A stretch of DNA of 56,640 bases. It comes from Gammaproteobacteria bacterium. GTDB taxonomy: Bacteria > Pseudomonadota > Gammaproteobacteria > Xanthomonadales > Marinicellaceae. The notes beneath the pieces are model-generated. The model did no database searches and was not told where the DNA came from. It saw nothing but the letters and a program-made list of their open reading frames with translations. Of the stretch, positions 1,457-19,364 are shown piece after piece. Numbering within the stretch: the first letter of the stretch is position 1; every line of letters starts with the position of its first letter. Where the stretch lies: assembly GCA_024280395.1 (NCBI GenBank), contig JAJRQG010000009.1, positions 1 through 56,640 on the forward strand, read 5' to 3'. The translations under genes and the position numbers were made by a program.

Positions 1457-1678
1457 ATGAATAAATTGTTTAAAAACATGAAAACTCATACAAAGATAAT
1501 GGTTTCTTTGTCGTTAATTATTAATATGTTATCTATGATTTTTATGAGAAAAATATTGCAGTCAGACTATTATTATTTGTTTTTCGCAGTTCAACTATTG
1601 GCGGTGGGTTATTTTTTTAAAGTTTTATTCCAGCAGATTAAAACTGACAACCCAAGCCCAAAATCTGGTAAACAATAA
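1457..1678 (+). CDS. Small two-helix membrane protein, unknown
   Basis: A 73-residue protein with two predicted transmembrane segments (about residues 13-30 and 38-58) and a basic N-terminus, ending in a hydrophilic KTDNPSPKSGKQ tail. No family is recognised. Upstream lies TATAAT-like sequence around 1422 and a small palindrome TTCCAATGGAA near 1440, so it may have its own promoter. It sits between msrA and rep on the same strand. Being short, it could be a chance frame, but its hydrophobic layout and position in a clean intergenic space favour a real gene. Confidence 0.6.
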   Translation: MNKLFKNMKTHTKIMVSLSLIINMLSMIFMRKILQSDYYYLFFAVQLLAVGYFFKVLFQQIKTDNPSPKSGKQ

Positions 1679-1687
1679 TCAAATTTC

Positions 1688-1696
1688 TGTTATAAT
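1688..1696 (+). promoter_or_regulatory. Extended -10 promoter candidate for rep
   Basis: TG-T-TATAAT gives a perfect -10 hexamer with an extended TGn, 32 bases before the rep ATG. No good -35 is seen at the expected place, which fits an extended -10 promoter. Confidence 0.4.
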
Positions 1697-1728
1697 CTTT
1701 CGCTTTATTTTCAAAAGTAAATCATTTC

Positions 1729-3717
1729 ATGCTCAACCTTCAACAACAATCCGCAGTAACTTACTGCGATGGTGCTTTATTGGTGCTTGCCGGTGCGGGT
1801 TGTGGAAAAACGCGGGTGATTACTGAGAAAATTGCTTATTTAATCAAAAGCAATATTGCCACTCACCACAATATATTTGCCATTACTTTTACCAACAAAG
1901 CAGCCAAGGAAATGGCTCAGCGTGCCAATAAAATGGTGTTTTTGCCCGAAATAGATGGTAAGCGTGAACGACTTAATATTTCCACATTTCATGCCTTGGG
2001 CATGCGCATTATTCGTGAAGAAATCAAACACTCCCCTTATCGCTATGGGTTCAGTATTTTTGACAGTTCAGAAACCCACAATATTGTTAAAGATCTATTG
2101 CCCAAAGGTTCCAATCGTGAACAAATCAATACCATTCAGTGGCAAATTTCGGCTTGGAAAAATGAAGGGCTAAAAGCCGATGAACTTGATACATCATTTA
2201 TGTTGGCACAAGAAGTGTATAAGCAATACGAACAAAGATTGATTGATTTCAATGCCTTGGATTTTGATGATTTGATTCTACAAACCTTAAGTTTGTTACA
2301 AACCGATGGAGAAGTGTTAAAGCGCTGGCAGGAGAAGATGAAATTTGTGTTGGTGGACGAATACCAAGATACCAATGGCTCACAATACCGTTTGCTGAAA
2401 ATGTTGGTTGGACAACACCGCAATATTATTTGTGTGGGTGATGACGACCAGTCGATTTATGGTTGGCGTGGAGCGCAAGCCGAAAACTTGAATATCCTAC
2501 AACAAGATTTCCCTGAGCTAAAAGTCGTAAAGCTAGAACAAAACTACCGTTCAACCCAAACCATATTGGGTGCGGCGCATGATGTGATTAAGCAAAATCC
2601 ACACGAGTTTGAAAAGAAGCTGTGGAGCGACTTGGGCTCGGGTGATTTAATAAAAATAGCGGCTTTTAATTCGCCTGAAGAAGAGTCTTTACAATTGTCC
2701 GCCGAGATTGATTACCAGCGTATTTTAAAGAAAAATAATTTTGCCGATTACGCCGTTTTGTATCGCTCCAATCATCAGGCTAAATTAGTCGAACAAGTTT
2801 TTCGCAGCAACAATATTCCCTATGTGATGAGTGGTGGTCGTTCATTTTTTGATTTCGCCGAAATCAAAGATTTGATGGCCTATATTCGATTATTGTGTAA
2901 CCCAAAAGACAACGCAGCATTTTTACGCATTGTTAATGTTCCCCGTCGTGGTATAGGGTCAAGTTCATTGGCAAAACTGGCACAAAGTGCAGAACATGCA
3001 CACATCAGTTATTTTAAGGCATCAGGAAACGATGGTGTGTTGTCCTCATTGCCTACAAGAACATCGCAAAAGCTCAAAGAATTTCATGGTCATATGTTGA
3101 AGCTACAAAAGAAAGTAGTCGCCAACATGAACGCTGACAAGATTGTTGATGAATTGGTACATGATATTGACTATATCGCATGGATTGCACAAACCAGCAA
3201 AGACAAAGTGTCAAAACATAGCCGCACAAAATTGGTGTTTGATTTCCAAAAATGGATGCGTGCCTTTACCAAAGACAAGGACATGACCTTGATTGATGCA
3301 GTTGCTCAAATGACTTTGCAGACCAACAAAGACGACGCCAATAATGAAGATGCGGTACAAATGATGACATTACACGCCGCCAAGGGCTTGGAGTTCCAAA
3401 ATGTTTATATGGTTGGCGTTGAAGAAGGCATTTTACCGCACCGCAATTCCATTGAAGAAGAAACCGTAGAGGAAGAACGCCGCTTGATGTACGTAGGCAT
3501 GACAAGGGCCATGAAAAACCTCACCATTAGCTATGTCAAAAAGCGCAAGAATAGATTTGCCCAAGACGACAATTGTGATGTTGGTCCCAGTCGTTTCTTA
3601 GACGAACTTCCTCAAAAATACATCAGTGGATATGGTCAAGTGACCAAAGAATCCGAAGAAAAACAACAAGAAAATAAGAGAGGACATTTGGCTGCATTGA
3701 GAGCCATGTTGGAATAA
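1729..3717 (+). CDS. rep: ATP-dependent DNA helicase Rep (UvrD/Rep superfamily 1)
   Basis: A 3'-5' DNA helicase that helps replication forks pass protein roadblocks and takes part in restart. It is 662 residues, close to the 673 of E. coli Rep. Superfamily 1 motifs run in order: LNLQQQSAV (Q motif), AGAGCGKT (Walker A, with Cys where Ser is usual), VDEYQDTN (motif II), DDDQSIYGWRGA (III), QNYRS (IV), TLHAAKGLEFQNVYMVG (V) and EEERRLMYVGMTRA (VI). The short N-terminus starting directly at LNLQQQ and the total length favour Rep over UvrD or PcrA. It is likely transcribed from its own extended -10 promoter. Confidence 0.93.
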   Translation: MLNLQQQSAVTYCDGALLVLAGAGCGKTRVITEKIAYLIKSNIATHHNIFAITFTNKAAKEMAQRANKMVFLPEIDGKRERLNISTFHALGMRIIREEIKHSPYRYGFSIFDSSETHNIVKDLLPKGSNREQINTIQWQISAWKNEGLKADELDTSFMLAQEVYKQYEQRLIDFNALDFDDLILQTLSLLQTDGEVLKRWQEKMKFVLVDEYQDTNGSQYRLLKMLVGQHRNIICVGDDDQSIYGWRGAQAENLNILQQDFPELKVVKLEQNYRSTQTILGAAHDVIKQNPHEFEKKLWSDLGSGDLIKIAAFNSPEEESLQLSAEIDYQRILKKNNFADYAVLYRSNHQAKLVEQVFRSNNIPYVMSGGRSFFDFAEIKDLMAYIRLLCNPKDNAAFLRIVNVPRRGIGSSSLAKLAQSAEHAHISYFKASGNDGVLSSLPTRTSQKLKEFHGHMLKLQKKVVANMNADKIVDELVHDIDYIAWIAQTSKDKVSKHSRTKLVFDFQKWMRAFTKDKDMTLIDAVAQMTLQTNKDDANNEDAVQMMTLHAAKGLEFQNVYMVGVEEGILPHRNSIEEETVEEERRLMYVGMTRAMKNLTISYVKKRKNRFAQDDNCDVGPSRFLDELPQKYISGYGQVTKESEEKQQENKRGHLAALRAMLE

Positions 3718-3731
3718 AATAAGAATTCCAT

Positions 3732-3795
3732 ACAGAATTTAGGCACTGCCATAAAATGATGGTAGTTTATGATAGCGCCTAAGGATGAATTCTGT
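3732..3795. repeat. Composite imperfect hairpin between convergent genes
   Basis: An outer stem ACAGAATT (3732-3739) pairs with AATTCTGT (3788-3795). An inner TAGGC (3740-3744) pairs with GCCTA (3777-3781), and an apical ACTGCCAT/ATGGTAGT pair is nearly complementary. There is no T-run, so this is not a standard intrinsic terminator. It lies between the converging rep and the anchored protein gene, where it could end or protect transcripts from both sides. Confidence 0.45.
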
Positions 3796-3816
3796 TAAAT
3801 TTCTATGCAGTAAAAT

Positions 3817-5136
3817 CTAAAGCTTTACATTACATTTCGTATAATTGGCATCTAGGCATTCAAACTCAACAGTATTTTTCTCTTTATCAAAATCAAAAGG
3901 ATTTCCTGTGTAATTATTTTTTATTGTAGAGTTCGAGATGTATTCAGTTACGTTGTTGGGTTGATTGCTCGTTAATTGCAATTGTAATTTGACAAGGTTA
4001 AATATGTTGTTTAAATCATGTACTCTGACAGCATAGTTCCAACAATTGTCACAAAAGTTATAGGCTATCATAGACTTGCCTGTGAAGTTATATAAGCTCG
4101 TTGGATTGTAGCTTATTAATGCATTTTTTTGTTTGTTGAACTTTTCCATGTAGTTAGTTTTTACGGCTTGGTAGATTTCTTTCGATGACATTTTGCTAAG
4201 AAAAACATTTGGCTCGGTAAAATATTTGTAGAGCAGATTGTGGTGTGAATTTTTTTGCAACAGAAATGTACTGAAATCTTTATCAAAGGGTTTTAATGCA
4301 TTTATTGCTTTAAACATGGCTCGTGATTCAGAGATGTAACTGTCGCTTATGTCCAGTGCTTGAGCAGAAAGTGGCGTTAATATTGACTGGATTAAATCAA
4401 TTTGTTCTGTATTGGGCTGGTTGTTGCGCAGATAAGTGGATAGATAATCTAAATTGTTTCTAATGTTGGCTTGCGCAATCATTTTATCGATGATCATTTC
4501 TCCATCTTCCAACACCATTTTCCAAAATTTAATCTCTTTTCCAATGTACAACAAAAAATCTGTTTTGTCGGTTGCGTTGTAACGCTGTGCTAAACTTATA
4601 TTACCAAGTCTCAACAATAAAAGATAAGAAGGGAGAGGTGTGCCAATGGTCATGTCATTAAAGTTAGTATAATAAGGCAGGTTTAAAACTTCATTGTAAC
4701 GATGTAACATTAATGAGAGTCTTTTATCATTGTCTGGTGAGTTAAACAACAACTGGCTTAATTCGAGCAAACAATCATTTTCGTCGCGTGAATTGCAAGC
4801 ACCATATTTTTCCAACCATGGTTCGTCAATGTTATCTTTTATACCAAGTATTTCCCTAGATTCGTCATCTCCTAAGTTGTCATTCCCTTTCTTGCGATTT
4901 TTTTGGTAGCGAGTTATTAGTGCATGTCCTGTTTTAATGATGTTTTTGTTTGAATCTGCATTGAGCCCCATAATGGCATAATAGGCATTGCCATCAGTTT
5001 TTGGTATGGGTTTAACTTGCATTATTTCAGTTATTGCAGGATTTAATTTTTCATCAAAGGGTGATGTGTTAATAATAAGTACAAAAGCGATAAATAGGCC
5101 AATGATTAATAATAGTATTTTAAATTGTCTTTTCAT
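3817..5136 (-). CDS. Membrane-anchored periplasmic protein of unknown function
   Basis: A 439-residue protein with an N-terminal hydrophobic segment (about residues 6-23) after a basic MKRQFK start, so it is a signal anchor or signal peptide with the rest outside the cytoplasm. The segment DGNAYYAIMGLNA after the anchor recalls uncharacterised gammaproteobacterial proteins, but I cannot name a family. Several Cys occur in pairs (FCDNC, ECLD...KCN), compatible with disulfides in the periplasm. It is transcribed divergently from a transmembrane winged-helix regulator, 125 bp away, with three direct repeats between them. That makes it a plausible target of the regulator; this is inference from position. 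Confidence 0.75.
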   Translation of the reverse strand: MKRQFKILLLIIGLFIAFVLIINTSPFDEKLNPAITEIMQVKPIPKTDGNAYYAIMGLNADSNKNIIKTGHALITRYQKNRKKGNDNLGDDESREILGIKDNIDEPWLEKYGACNSRDENDCLLELSQLLFNSPDNDKRLSLMLHRYNEVLNLPYYTNFNDMTIGTPLPSYLLLLRLGNISLAQRYNATDKTDFLLYIGKEIKFWKMVLEDGEMIIDKMIAQANIRNNLDYLSTYLRNNQPNTEQIDLIQSILTPLSAQALDISDSYISESRAMFKAINALKPFDKDFSTFLLQKNSHHNLLYKYFTEPNVFLSKMSSKEIYQAVKTNYMEKFNKQKNALISYNPTSLYNFTGKSMIAYNFCDNCWNYAVRVHDLNNIFNLVKLQLQLTSNQPNNVTEYISNSTIKNNYTGNPFDFDKEKNTVEFECLDANYTKCNVKL

Positions 5137-8377: not shown

Positions 8378-8905
8378 ATGGCTGAATACGTCACGCTCGC
8401 ACGACCTTATGCCAAAGCGGCTTTTGATTATGCAAAAGGTGCTGGTTTGGTTGATTCTTGGTTGAAGCAATTAACAGTATCAGCTGGTCTAGCATCGGTT
8501 GATAAAGTATCTGCATCTTTTTCATCGCCTGAGAAAGACAACAGTCAGTTGGTTGGTATGTTGGCAGGAATAGATGCTGATGCTGGTTATACAAACTTGA
8601 TACAACTAATGGCAGACAATAATCGATTAGCATTATTGCCAGATGTCATTAATGTATATAAGTATATCAGTGAGCAAGATGCAAAAGCCTTGAGTGCCGA
8701 TGTATTTACTGCTGCTGAACTTGATCAAAAGCAACTCGAAAGCATAAGTGCTTCGTTGTCAAAAAGAACAGGCAAAACGGTCAATCTTACCCAACATATA
8801 GATAAGTCGCTACTTAGTGGTGCACGTATTGTTGCTGGAGATTTGGTCATTGACGGTTCTTTGAAGGCTAAATTAGCTAAATTAAAAACAGAGCTTTTAA
8901 ATTAA
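8378..8905 (+). CDS. atpH: F1Fo ATP synthase subunit delta
   Basis: Links the peripheral stalk to the top of the F1 head. It has 175 residues, the normal length. The N-terminal VTLARPYAKAAFDYA is the family signature (A-R-P-Y-A-K-A-x-F), and the C-terminus has the LLSGARIVAGDLVIDGSLKAKLAKL segment conserved in delta/OSCP proteins. It starts two bases after atpF. Confidence 0.97.
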   Translation: MAEYVTLARPYAKAAFDYAKGAGLVDSWLKQLTVSAGLASVDKVSASFSSPEKDNSQLVGMLAGIDADAGYTNLIQLMADNNRLALLPDVINVYKYISEQDAKALSADVFTAAELDQKQLESISASLSKRTGKTVNLTQHIDKSLLSGARIVAGDLVIDGSLKAKLAKLKTELLN

Positions 8906-18042: not shown

Positions 18043-18885
18043 TTATTCGAAACCATTTTTAAATAAGTTGTTAAAGCGGTTGTTAAAATAGCCATCAAAG
18101 GTGTTTTGGACTAGGTATTCATACCCTTGAGGAGTTAGATGAAAACAATCTCTGGTGAATGTGAAATCTCGCATGGCCTGAATGGGCGAAGGTCTGTTTA
18201 AATCACCCGGAGGCATAATAACTCCAGGAGCGATGCCATCATTTGGAAAGCCAAAAAATGCTTGCATTAAACCAAAATGAGACACATGAAATACACGCGG
18301 GTCATTCATGGCTATTTGACCATAAATTTGTTCAAAAGTAGTCGCTGCAGTATTGAGTTGGTTGGTTGTTGGCACGCCCATATCTGTAAGTAAGTTATTG
18401 CATGTTTGTCCAAATAAGCCGCCAATAGTGTCTTCAAAATTAGGATAGTCATAAAAGCTCAGTATTACTTGGATGTTACTTCTTTGTGCTAATACAGCAT
18501 CGACAATGGTGGTCAAGTCTGTTTGTATTTGTGACTGTAGTGCTTGCTCTTGCATCGGTGTCATATTGATGTTCCAAGCATTAAGAAAATCATTGCCGCC
18601 GATGGTTAGTTGAACAGTATCAATTTCCGGATTGTTATTGATGGCATCTAATATTATTTGTAATTGAGCAGGTATTGCCCAATCTGACGCTTGTCTACCA
18701 TCTTCAGAAACCGAATCACTGATAGTATGAATAACTAGATTGGGAAAACCATTATCAGAAAAAACCTGATTATGGGTGTTGTTGTCTATTTGCAGTTGAG
18801 CCCAAGAGTCACCTACAACAAGTACCCTAGGTGTTTGTGCAAAGGCAATCGATGTCATGAAAAGTAGGATTAATAATTTGCTCAT
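18043..18885 (-). CDS. Secreted SGNH/GDSL hydrolase with C-terminal NGFE tail
   Basis: A 280-residue esterase/lipase of the SGNH fold. The signal peptide (1-16, TSIAFA) precedes the block I motif VVGDSW with nucleophile Ser27; block III is TIGGNDF and block V is DCFHLTPQGY with Asp246 and His249. The natural substrate is unknown. The protein ends FNNLFKNGFE; short endings of the type (I/L)F-x-x-GFE recur, as I recall, on secreted proteins of Xanthomonadales-like bacteria, so this may be a sorting or secretion tag. The start overlaps the stop of the DUF4442 gene by 4 bp (ATGA), so the two are cotranslated. Confidence 0.85.
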   Translation of the reverse strand: MSKLLILLFMTSIAFAQTPRVLVVGDSWAQLQIDNNTHNQVFSDNGFPNLVIHTISDSVSEDGRQASDWAIPAQLQIILDAINNNPEIDTVQLTIGGNDFLNAWNINMTPMQEQALQSQIQTDLTTIVDAVLAQRSNIQVILSFYDYPNFEDTIGGLFGQTCNNLLTDMGVPTTNQLNTAATTFEQIYGQIAMNDPRVFHVSHFGLMQAFFGFPNDGIAPGVIMPPGDLNRPSPIQAMRDFTFTRDCFHLTPQGYEYLVQNTFDGYFNNRFNNLFKNGFE

Positions 18886-19364
18886 GACTTTCTAGACAAT
18901 AACCAATAAAAGGTACCTACAGCCACAACTTCGTCGGAGAGGTCTTTTATGGTAGTTGTCACAGTGTAGTCAATACTGTCAGCAACTTCTGGTATTTCAC
19001 AGATACATTCTGCGGTTAGATCTCCTTTGGCTTTTTTGATATACTCCATTTCCATTTTGGTCAAAATACCGCGTATTTGACTGGTCATTCCAGACAATAC
19101 AGCTAAACCACTGGTGACTTCCCCCAAATTGATTAACGCTACAGCATGAATGCTTTTAAGATGATTTTTGTTGCCACGTCGCTCTTTAAGAAAAGCCTGG
19201 CAATGGCCTGGTTTCAAATCTGTGATTAGGGCTTTTATGGTGCCAGTATAAGCGGCCATTTTCCCTACAGCTCGTGAGAATAGTTGTTTGCCGAAAGGTT
19301 TGTTTTGGAGTTTTTTCCAATTGGCCAATATTTTTTCGCCGGGTGATTCGTTATTTTGTGACAT
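18882..19364 (-). CDS. DUF4442 hotdog-fold protein (putative thioesterase)
   Basis: A 160-residue cytoplasmic protein of the DUF4442/hotdog group, related to acyl-CoA thioesterases. Features are FLKERRGNKNHLKSIHAVALINLGEVTSGLA (the typical N-x-x-x-x-(I/M)-H-A segment where the catalytic acid and substrate helix lie), and the YIKKAKGDLTAEC strand. No activity can be assigned. It is coupled by a 4-bp overlap to the downstream SGNH hydrolase and divergent from pepQ across only 32 bp. Confidence 0.82.
   Translation of the reverse strand: MSQNNESPGEKILANWKKLQNKPFGKQLFSRAVGKMAAYTGTIKALITDLKPGHCQAFLKERRGNKNHLKSIHAVALINLGEVTSGLAVLSGMTSQIRGILTKMEMEYIKKAKGDLTAECICEIPEVADSIDYTVTTTIKDLSDEVVAVGTFYWLLSRKS

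Follow-up and report, generated by a model that had tools for sequence, protein, structure and literature searches.

A short C-terminal tag on predicted exported proteins of Xanthomonadales and its co-distribution with one type II secretion system

The stretch of DNA analysed here (the window) is an entire contig (C38) of 56,640 nucleotides from a host genome of 3.77 Mb in 158 contigs. It encodes on its minus strand a predicted secreted hydrolase of the GDSL/SGNH type (Table 1), whose sequence starts with MSKLLILLFMTSIAFAQ and ends with FNNRFNNLFKNGFE. The Pfam matches of this protein to Lipase_GDSL_2 (E 3.9e-6, 27.9 bits) and Lipase_GDSL (E 2.6e-4, 21.7 bits) fall below the gathering thresholds of 32.9 and 23.6 bits, respectively, and GDSW, GGND and HLTPQG blocks can all be read in its sequence. 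By the GDSL and SGNH motifs, we take the serine of VVGDSW to be the putative nucleophile and the histidine of HLTPQGY the putative catalytic histidine. A preliminary description of this DNA had placed an NGFE ending after the last catalytic block, and this is what the reading frame contains: the 280-residue protein ends LFKNGFE, and 31 residues lie between His249 and the C-terminus. The start of the gene is overlapped by 4 bases by the stop codon of a short open reading frame (18882-19364, minus strand) whose product, we presume, resembles a DUF4442-type thioesterase; the arrangement suggests a two-gene operon.

Table 1. Coordinates of the window protein and of class GN sortase genes in related genomes
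Feature	Position	Strand	Basis
Tagged protein, predicted 280-aa secreted GDSL/SGNH-like hydrolase	window 18043..18885	-	ORF and Pfam
Signal-peptide-like N-terminus, residues 1-16, MSKLLILLFMTSIAFA	window 18838..18885	-	sequence; positive by home-made heuristic, cleavage point guessed
C-terminal tag LFKNGFE with TAA stop	window 18043..18066	-	sequence; one of 50 strict sites in the genome
Putative nucleophile Ser27 in VVGDSW	window 18805..18807	-	sequence and GDSL motif
Putative catalytic His249 in HLTPQGY, last catalytic block	window 18139..18141	-	sequence and SGNH motif
Class GN sortase	L093:9933-10481	-	TIGR03784
Class GN sortase	L090:1839-2387	+	TIGR03784
Class GN sortase	L062, about 1581-2066	-	adjoins tagged gene
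Class GN sortase	L095, about 3534-4016	+	about 6 kb from tagged gene

The preliminary description mentioned similar (I/L)F-x-x-GFE endings on many otherwise unrelated secreted proteins. Across the whole host genome, F..GFE followed by a stop codon occurs far above its reversed-pattern control (58 sites versus 2), and the narrower pattern F.[ND]GFE-stop, the strict tag, occurs at 50 sites versus 0. All 58 ends were read. The eight sites lacking Asn or Asp at position -4 consist of six open reading frames of 6-38 codons, which we regard as chance matches, and two long exported-looking proteins with Ser at this position (998 residues ending FSSGFE in L038, and 262 residues ending FKSGFE in L050). 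A His at -4 is present in a protein of genome G015 (FKHGFE, L084:6027-8495, minus strand); given these Ser and His carriers, position -4 is looser than Asn or Asp.

The consensus of the tag is [DEN]-x-[ILVM]-F-x-[ND]-G-F-E-COOH. Among 48 carriers, that is, the 50 strict sites minus the two shortest fragments, the search pattern imposes Glu at -1, Phe at -2, Gly at -3 and Phe at -6 in every protein, with Asn (31) or Asp (17) at -4. Outside the search pattern, position -7 is Ile, Leu, Val or Met in all 48, position -8 is Leu or Ile in 22, and position -9 is Asp, Glu or Asn in 38. An alignment of 38 carriers has only four invariant columns, F275, G278, F279 and E280, and the sequence upstream is unrelated. 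Over the 50 sites the four Gly codons are used 17, 18, 6 and 9 times, the two Glu codons 38 and 12 times and the three stops 33, 10 and 7 times, and both Phe codons occur. Thus, the variation of codons and stops indicates selection at the level of the protein. Several variants lie around the core set. Open reading frames of 13, 33 and 44 codons in L007, L029 and L040 (the last near 8399, minus strand) consist of the tail only and resemble carrier 3' ends that have been duplicated or broken. An exported open reading frame of host contig C141 (L264:18667-19674, plus strand) has the near-tag end TTDLIFINGFDANN, in which Asp and three additional residues take it outside the strict pattern, and a protein of genome G030 (L089, contig C124, 5200-6834, minus strand) ends in two tags in tandem, VFQDGFEGARTGVVFADGFE.

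Forty-five of the 50 strict sites belong to reading frames complete at the N-terminus, the other five being cut by contig or locus ends. A signal-peptide-like start was found in 38 of these 45, and three of the seven without one are the tail-only fragments. The baseline was 115 of 339 open reading frames of at least 100 residues, drawn from 454,651 bases of the host genome (the window and 20 further stretches) in which the window protein is the only tagged one. The ending is therefore enriched among signal-peptide proteins, as the preliminary description had anticipated (Fisher p about 1e-10), by a home-made heuristic and with search rules that somewhat favour the tagged set (starts within 90 codons and shorter frames were accepted, where the baseline allowed 60 codons and required 100 residues or more). 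Beyond the signal peptide, 37 of the 38 signal-peptide-like carriers have no membrane-spanning stretch in a hydropathy window and one has such a stretch; at or beside the tag itself we saw no transmembrane segment, basic cluster or conserved cysteine in the carriers. The likeness to other C-terminal tags drawn in the preliminary description thus extends to a suffix on exported proteins and stops there: the transmembrane helix and basic cluster that mark PEP-CTERM, LPXTG and GlyGly-CTERM tags are missing.

The carriers are diverse, many being large and rich in beta structure, and some are paralogous. Choice-of-anchor Q is matched by seven of 38 carriers at E values up to 1 (best 1.7e-13), and other domains include beta-helix, FG-GAP, Ig-like, S8, endonuclease I, Reprolysin and GSDH. 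No model of the tag appears among the 25 shown of 40 NCBIfam families and the 25 shown of 39 Pfam families matched by the 38 carriers, and no sorting-tail model among the 25 shown of those 40. One carrier, an M36 metallopeptidase (L254:140-2410, minus strand), is matched by a T9SS-dependent M36 model up to residue 745 of 756; the match ends at profile position 781 of 869 and, at E 6.7e-247, lies below the curated cut-off. Rhombosortase- and myxosortase-dependent M36 models match the same protein. In this single case the tag occupies the place that the T9SS domain has in relatives, and relatives of the enzyme bear different tails in different lineages, as has been described for GlyGly-CTERM (PMC3237569). 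A family of proteins of 86-94 residues (host L031, L040, L045 and L002) combines a signal peptide, mostly a GGG..G.IGQ.DA...GGFW block, and then the tag; the two members scanned alone had no Pfam match.

In a scan of 369 genomes of the class, 31 had a strict match, and at least three tags were found only in the Xanthomonadales, as we assign the order. Outside the order no genome had more than two strict matches, with 30 matches in 364 genomes. This background, together with the reversed-pattern controls, rules out a chance origin of the tag. Within the order, 103 of 299 genomes had a match, 78 had at least three tags, and the maximum was 56. The distribution is sporadic: at least three tags are found in two of 78 genomes of family f2, these two being of different genera, in nine of 76 of family f12, and in 29 of 33 of family f1, though not in the single genome of its genus g2. 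The suggestion that such endings belong to Xanthomonadales-like bacteria fits, in that at least three tags occur only in this order, and has to be narrowed in that the tag is missing from the majority of genomes in the two families with the largest samples. Genus g3 is probably Marinicella, and g12 of family f9 probably Wenzhouxiangella; with these genera the order would be the Xanthomonadales of GTDB (PMC7691419). The only match in genome G013 is a 17-codon open reading frame, probably a chance match. A looser ending, [ND]GF[DE]-stop, was sought in Wenzhouxiangella-type genomes; it had no occurrence in G421, and none was convincing among the ends read in G032, G439 and G478 (eight of ten sites).

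Two types of type II secretion system (T2SS) were distinguished in 40 regions of 20 kb or less. T2SS-B is what we take to be an Xps-like E-F-G...D cluster, with gene letters assigned from gene order. T2SS-A, found in 22 of the 40 regions, is a gspC-D-E-F operon of a dispersed system; its gspG belongs to a second operon, which in the host continues with four prepilin-like open reading frames resembling gspHIJK (L249:10434-13282), and in 10 of the 22 regions the gspC-D-E-F operon is flanked by genes that presumably correspond to ftsE and ftsX. GspC-A has the transmembrane helix, HR domain and PDZ domain of a GspC protein, with HMM matches to the OutC, PulC and EpsC chains, and the B clusters contain no counterpart of it except one weak match (E 1.4e-4). 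Type-A GspG scores 178-184 bits in five of five tagged genomes checked and is absent from the one tag-less genome checked (G036). Against the GspD-A profile, full-length type-A secretins score 820-904 bits, that of tag-less G541 451 bits, and others, fragments excepted, at most 185; the records nearest to the GspD-A of the host come from unclassified Lysobacterales and Alcanivoracaceae MAGs. The secretin model TIGR02517 has no match over its cut-off in tag-less G011 and G025, nor in tagged G007, where the secretin is fragmented and GspC-A is present. A third type of GspC, at 80-91 bits and possibly Xcs-like, occurs in five tag-less genomes of genus g307 in family f2 (G442, G541, G606, G616 and G625).

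The same 299 genomes were scanned for the tag and with a GspC-A profile. At thresholds chosen after the tables had been seen (at least three tags, and more than 100 bits for GspC, so that G610 at exactly 100 bits counts as negative), 72 genomes have both, six have tags without GspC-A, 43 have GspC-A only and 178 have neither (Fisher 2e-31, with related genomes that are not independent). By genus, GspC-A is present in 28 of 29 tagged genera and absent from 46 of 56 tag-less ones, and when GspC labels were shuffled within families, one or fewer tagged genera without GspC arose in none of 20,000 trials (mean 6.8). Families in which the tag is rare follow the same pattern: in f2, GspC-A is found in two of 78 genomes, which are exactly the two tagged ones, and in f12 it is found in nine of nine tagged genomes and is absent from 65 of 67 others. 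GspC-positive genomes hold 1281 tags in 115 genomes; the GspC-negative ones, apart from the six misses, hold 14 in 178, or 0.08 each, which equals the class background outside the order. Among the six misses, G486 and G575 have GspD-A fragments, and G431, G440 and G543 are 77-90% complete. The sixth, G472, is 98% complete and has four strict tags, two of the three ends read looking real, and neither GspC-A nor GspD-A was found in it by profile.

The reverse relation is looser, fewer than three tags being present in 43 of the 115 GspC-A genomes. GspC-A is present in 26 of 30 sampled genomes of the genus assigned to Wenzhouxiangella, and none of the 30 has at least three tags. T2SS-A thus looks necessary for the tag, and it is not sufficient, since Wenzhouxiangella has T2SS-A without tags. 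The true partner could also be another gene that was lost together with T2SS-A. One genome of that genus, G439, is tag-less with T2SS-A present and fits Wenzhouxiangella AB-CW3, a strain reported to excrete no proteolytic activity into the medium (PMC7691419).

Enzymes that might process the tag were sought as well. Gingipain-type peptidase C25 is unusual in Gammaproteobacteria; in this order it reaches up to seven matches per genome (in G000-G040, for example L082:3255-7355, plus strand). It occurs in 25 of 41 relatives and in only one of ten genomes of the genus assigned to Marinicella, all ten of which are tagged (5-17 tags), and on its absence from nine of these ten a PorU-type C25 partner was rejected. 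Exosortase (PF09721) was found in nine of 14 tagged genomes tested (one a frame with stops) versus one of seven tag-less genomes. It tracks the tag weakly, and was rejected as partner on its absence from several of the richest genomes; the tagged genomes without a match are G000, G010, G038, G644 and G520, with 50, 34, 56, 10 and 11 tags. A survey of 17 neighbourhoods of tag genes from seven low-copy genomes of four genera gave five cross-genus matches. Four of them pair one tagged protein with another; the remaining one is a class GN sortase (TIGR03784), for which the two proteins scanned gave E values of 6.1e-33 and 2.3e-61. In G030 and G040, which share a genus, and in G037, from a different family, the sortase gene and a tagged gene are neighbours in convergent orientation; in G035 some 6 kb separate the two. 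The four genomes span three families. Each of these sortases has an upstream partner gene whose product ends in a transmembrane stretch and a mostly basic C-terminus, preceded in G030 and G040 by LPQTD. Because of this partner, the sortase appears to have a target of its own, and PMC3237569 describes class GN sortases as dedicated, one-target arrangements. The LPXTG-like motif, transmembrane helix and basic end are found on the sortase partners and not on the tagged proteins, and no class GN sortase matched in the loci extracted around the tag genes of the host. The preliminary description had suggested a co-occurring protease or transporter family; C25 and exosortase do not track the tag, and the T2SS-A transporter does.

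The short sorting signal that was first proposed stands as a signal common to many unrelated exported proteins; the sorting is our inference. The analysis shows a tag that is concentrated in exported proteins, conserved at the protein level and co-distributed with T2SS-A; from this we infer that tagged proteins are exported by T2SS-A, which reads the tag. We put at slightly under one half (about 0.47) the probability that the roughly nine C-terminal residues act as a sorting signal for T2SS-A export. The N-terminal signal peptide would take the carrier across the inner membrane, the folded periplasmic carrier would be recruited to T2SS-A through its exposed C-terminus, and T2SS-A would then carry it through the outer membrane. 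As expected of T2SS substrates, most carriers have a predicted Sec-type signal peptide and the tagged genomes a T2SS, secretion itself being a prediction.

The likeliest reader would be the PDZ domain of GspC-A, since PDZ domains classically bind C-termini, and direct binding of the tag by this domain is a tentative proposal. Classical PDZ ligands typically end in a hydrophobic residue, unlike the tag, whose last residue is Glu; as this is unusual, another reader is possible, such as the HR domain, the N-domains of GspD or the tip of the pseudopilus. An AF2 model of a GspC from genus g1 contains a PDZ-like domain (block pLDDT 58-89, mostly 75-89), in a chain whose overall pTM of 0.32 makes the placement of domains meaningless. 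Foldseek matched this model to the GspC-HR structures 3oss (2.9e-4) and 2lnv (8e-4) and, more weakly, to the EpsC PDZ structures 2i4s (1.6e-3) and 2i6v (2.3e-3). At PDZ position 213 (Ile213 of the host GspC), 32 GspCs have an aliphatic residue (median 15 tags) and 30 an aromatic one (median 0), a contrast picked by eye, post hoc, and confounded with family. According to PMC12369372, some T2SS substrates require the GspC PDZ domain; secretion of VesB depends on the PDZ domain of EpsC, which also captured a VesB chimera, and that of OutC binds PelI. T2SS-A GspC shares the HR and PDZ domains of EpsC, OutC and PulC, whereas the PDZ-dependent substrates VesB and PelI present loops or an Ig/Fn3 domain and have no common linear C-terminal motif. 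In the full proposal, F-x-[ND]-G-F-E-COOH would act after Sec as a portable linear recruitment signal whose free C-terminus is read by the GspC PDZ domain; we regard this as more doubtful than the export role by itself.

Comparison with known systems places the tag among sorting suffixes of a different build. GlyGly-CTERM, PEP-CTERM and MYXO-CTERM are likewise suffixes on many unrelated Sec-exported proteins, are sporadic among genomes and share with the tag an M36 peptidase family that bears different tails by lineage; the GlyGly-CTERM protein VesB also uses a T2SS. Unlike these tripartite signals and LPXTG, the tag occupies about nine residues at the exact C-terminus with no transmembrane helix or basic cluster, and unlike PEP-CTERM it occurs without exosortase in five of 14 tagged genomes tested. 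The CTD of the type IX system is a folded C-terminal domain of about 80 residues that lacks a transmembrane helix and targets already folded proteins for passage across the outer membrane. The type A CTD (Por secretion) resembles the tag in its C-terminal position, in the missing helix and in the T9SS M36 model that covers one carrier; the tag differs in that it is not an 80-residue folded domain and in that PorU-type C25 does not track it. Substrates of type I systems are not known to have an N-terminal signal peptide, and some have a short conserved extreme C-terminus, which is like the tag, whereas tag carriers have signal peptides. The class GN sortase sits by a tagged gene in three of the genomes read, and its own target differs from the tagged proteins in having a tripartite-looking tail with a transmembrane helix.

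Four other explanations were weighed. The tag may instead serve surface anchoring or retention, with export by ordinary structural signals and the tail read outside the cell, or on exit, by an outer-membrane factor. This reading would account for T2SS-A without tags; carrier families have relatives that end in anchoring tags (the choice-of-anchor Q matches and the M36 models), and V. cholerae VesB without its GlyGly-CTERM is still secreted, GlyGly-CTERM serving surface attachment (PMC12369372). We nonetheless think it unlikely, as the tag lacks the transmembrane segment, basic cluster or adjacent conserved cysteine that known anchoring chemistry wants, and no anchoring enzyme was found in this analysis.

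Processing by a dedicated C-terminal protease or sortase, of class GN or another kind, with T2SS-A co-occurring as a co-lost ancestral gene, is more improbable. Tag systems of the Haft type have protease or sortase partners that are often encoded beside a target, a pattern repeated by the class GN sortase next to tagged genes, and exosortase is commoner in tagged than in tag-less genomes. Against this, each class GN sortase has its own partner with a membrane-spanning tail that the tags lack, the loci extracted around the host's tag genes gave no match to it, and exosortase and C25 are missing from the tagged genomes listed above. A tag for periplasmic stability or quality control, shielding the C-terminus from PDZ proteases or presenting it to them, is very improbable: proteases of the DegS, DegQ and Prc type read C-terminal tripeptides, and many carriers are large and beta-rich, but such proteases are near-universal, and only some genera of a single order have the tag. 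That a DNA-level repeat or copied gene ends encode the tail by happenstance has next to no likelihood, for although three tail-only fragments of 13-44 residues and some paralogous carriers exist, it is ruled out by codon diversity (four Gly, two Glu and two Phe codons and three stops) with unrelated sequence upstream.

Cargo selection by the T2SS has long been a puzzle. According to two accounts, no common linear signal is known for T2SS substrates (PMC7949064, PMC12369372), and the known signals are described as structural and not linear (PMC7949064). A search by title and abstract, in a literature that excludes most subscription journals, found no published description of the tag. As a linear T2SS signal the tag would be new, C-terminal sorting tags as a kind being already known. 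If this reading is true, a nine-residue motif that tracks a single T2SS across genera, in as many as about 50 proteins of a genome, would offer a handle on recruitment; the secretomes of the order would become readable from sequence, and folded proteins might be exported with a very short tag. Even as an anchoring tag, it would be a C-terminal sorting signal without a model among the NCBIfam families shown (25 of 40).
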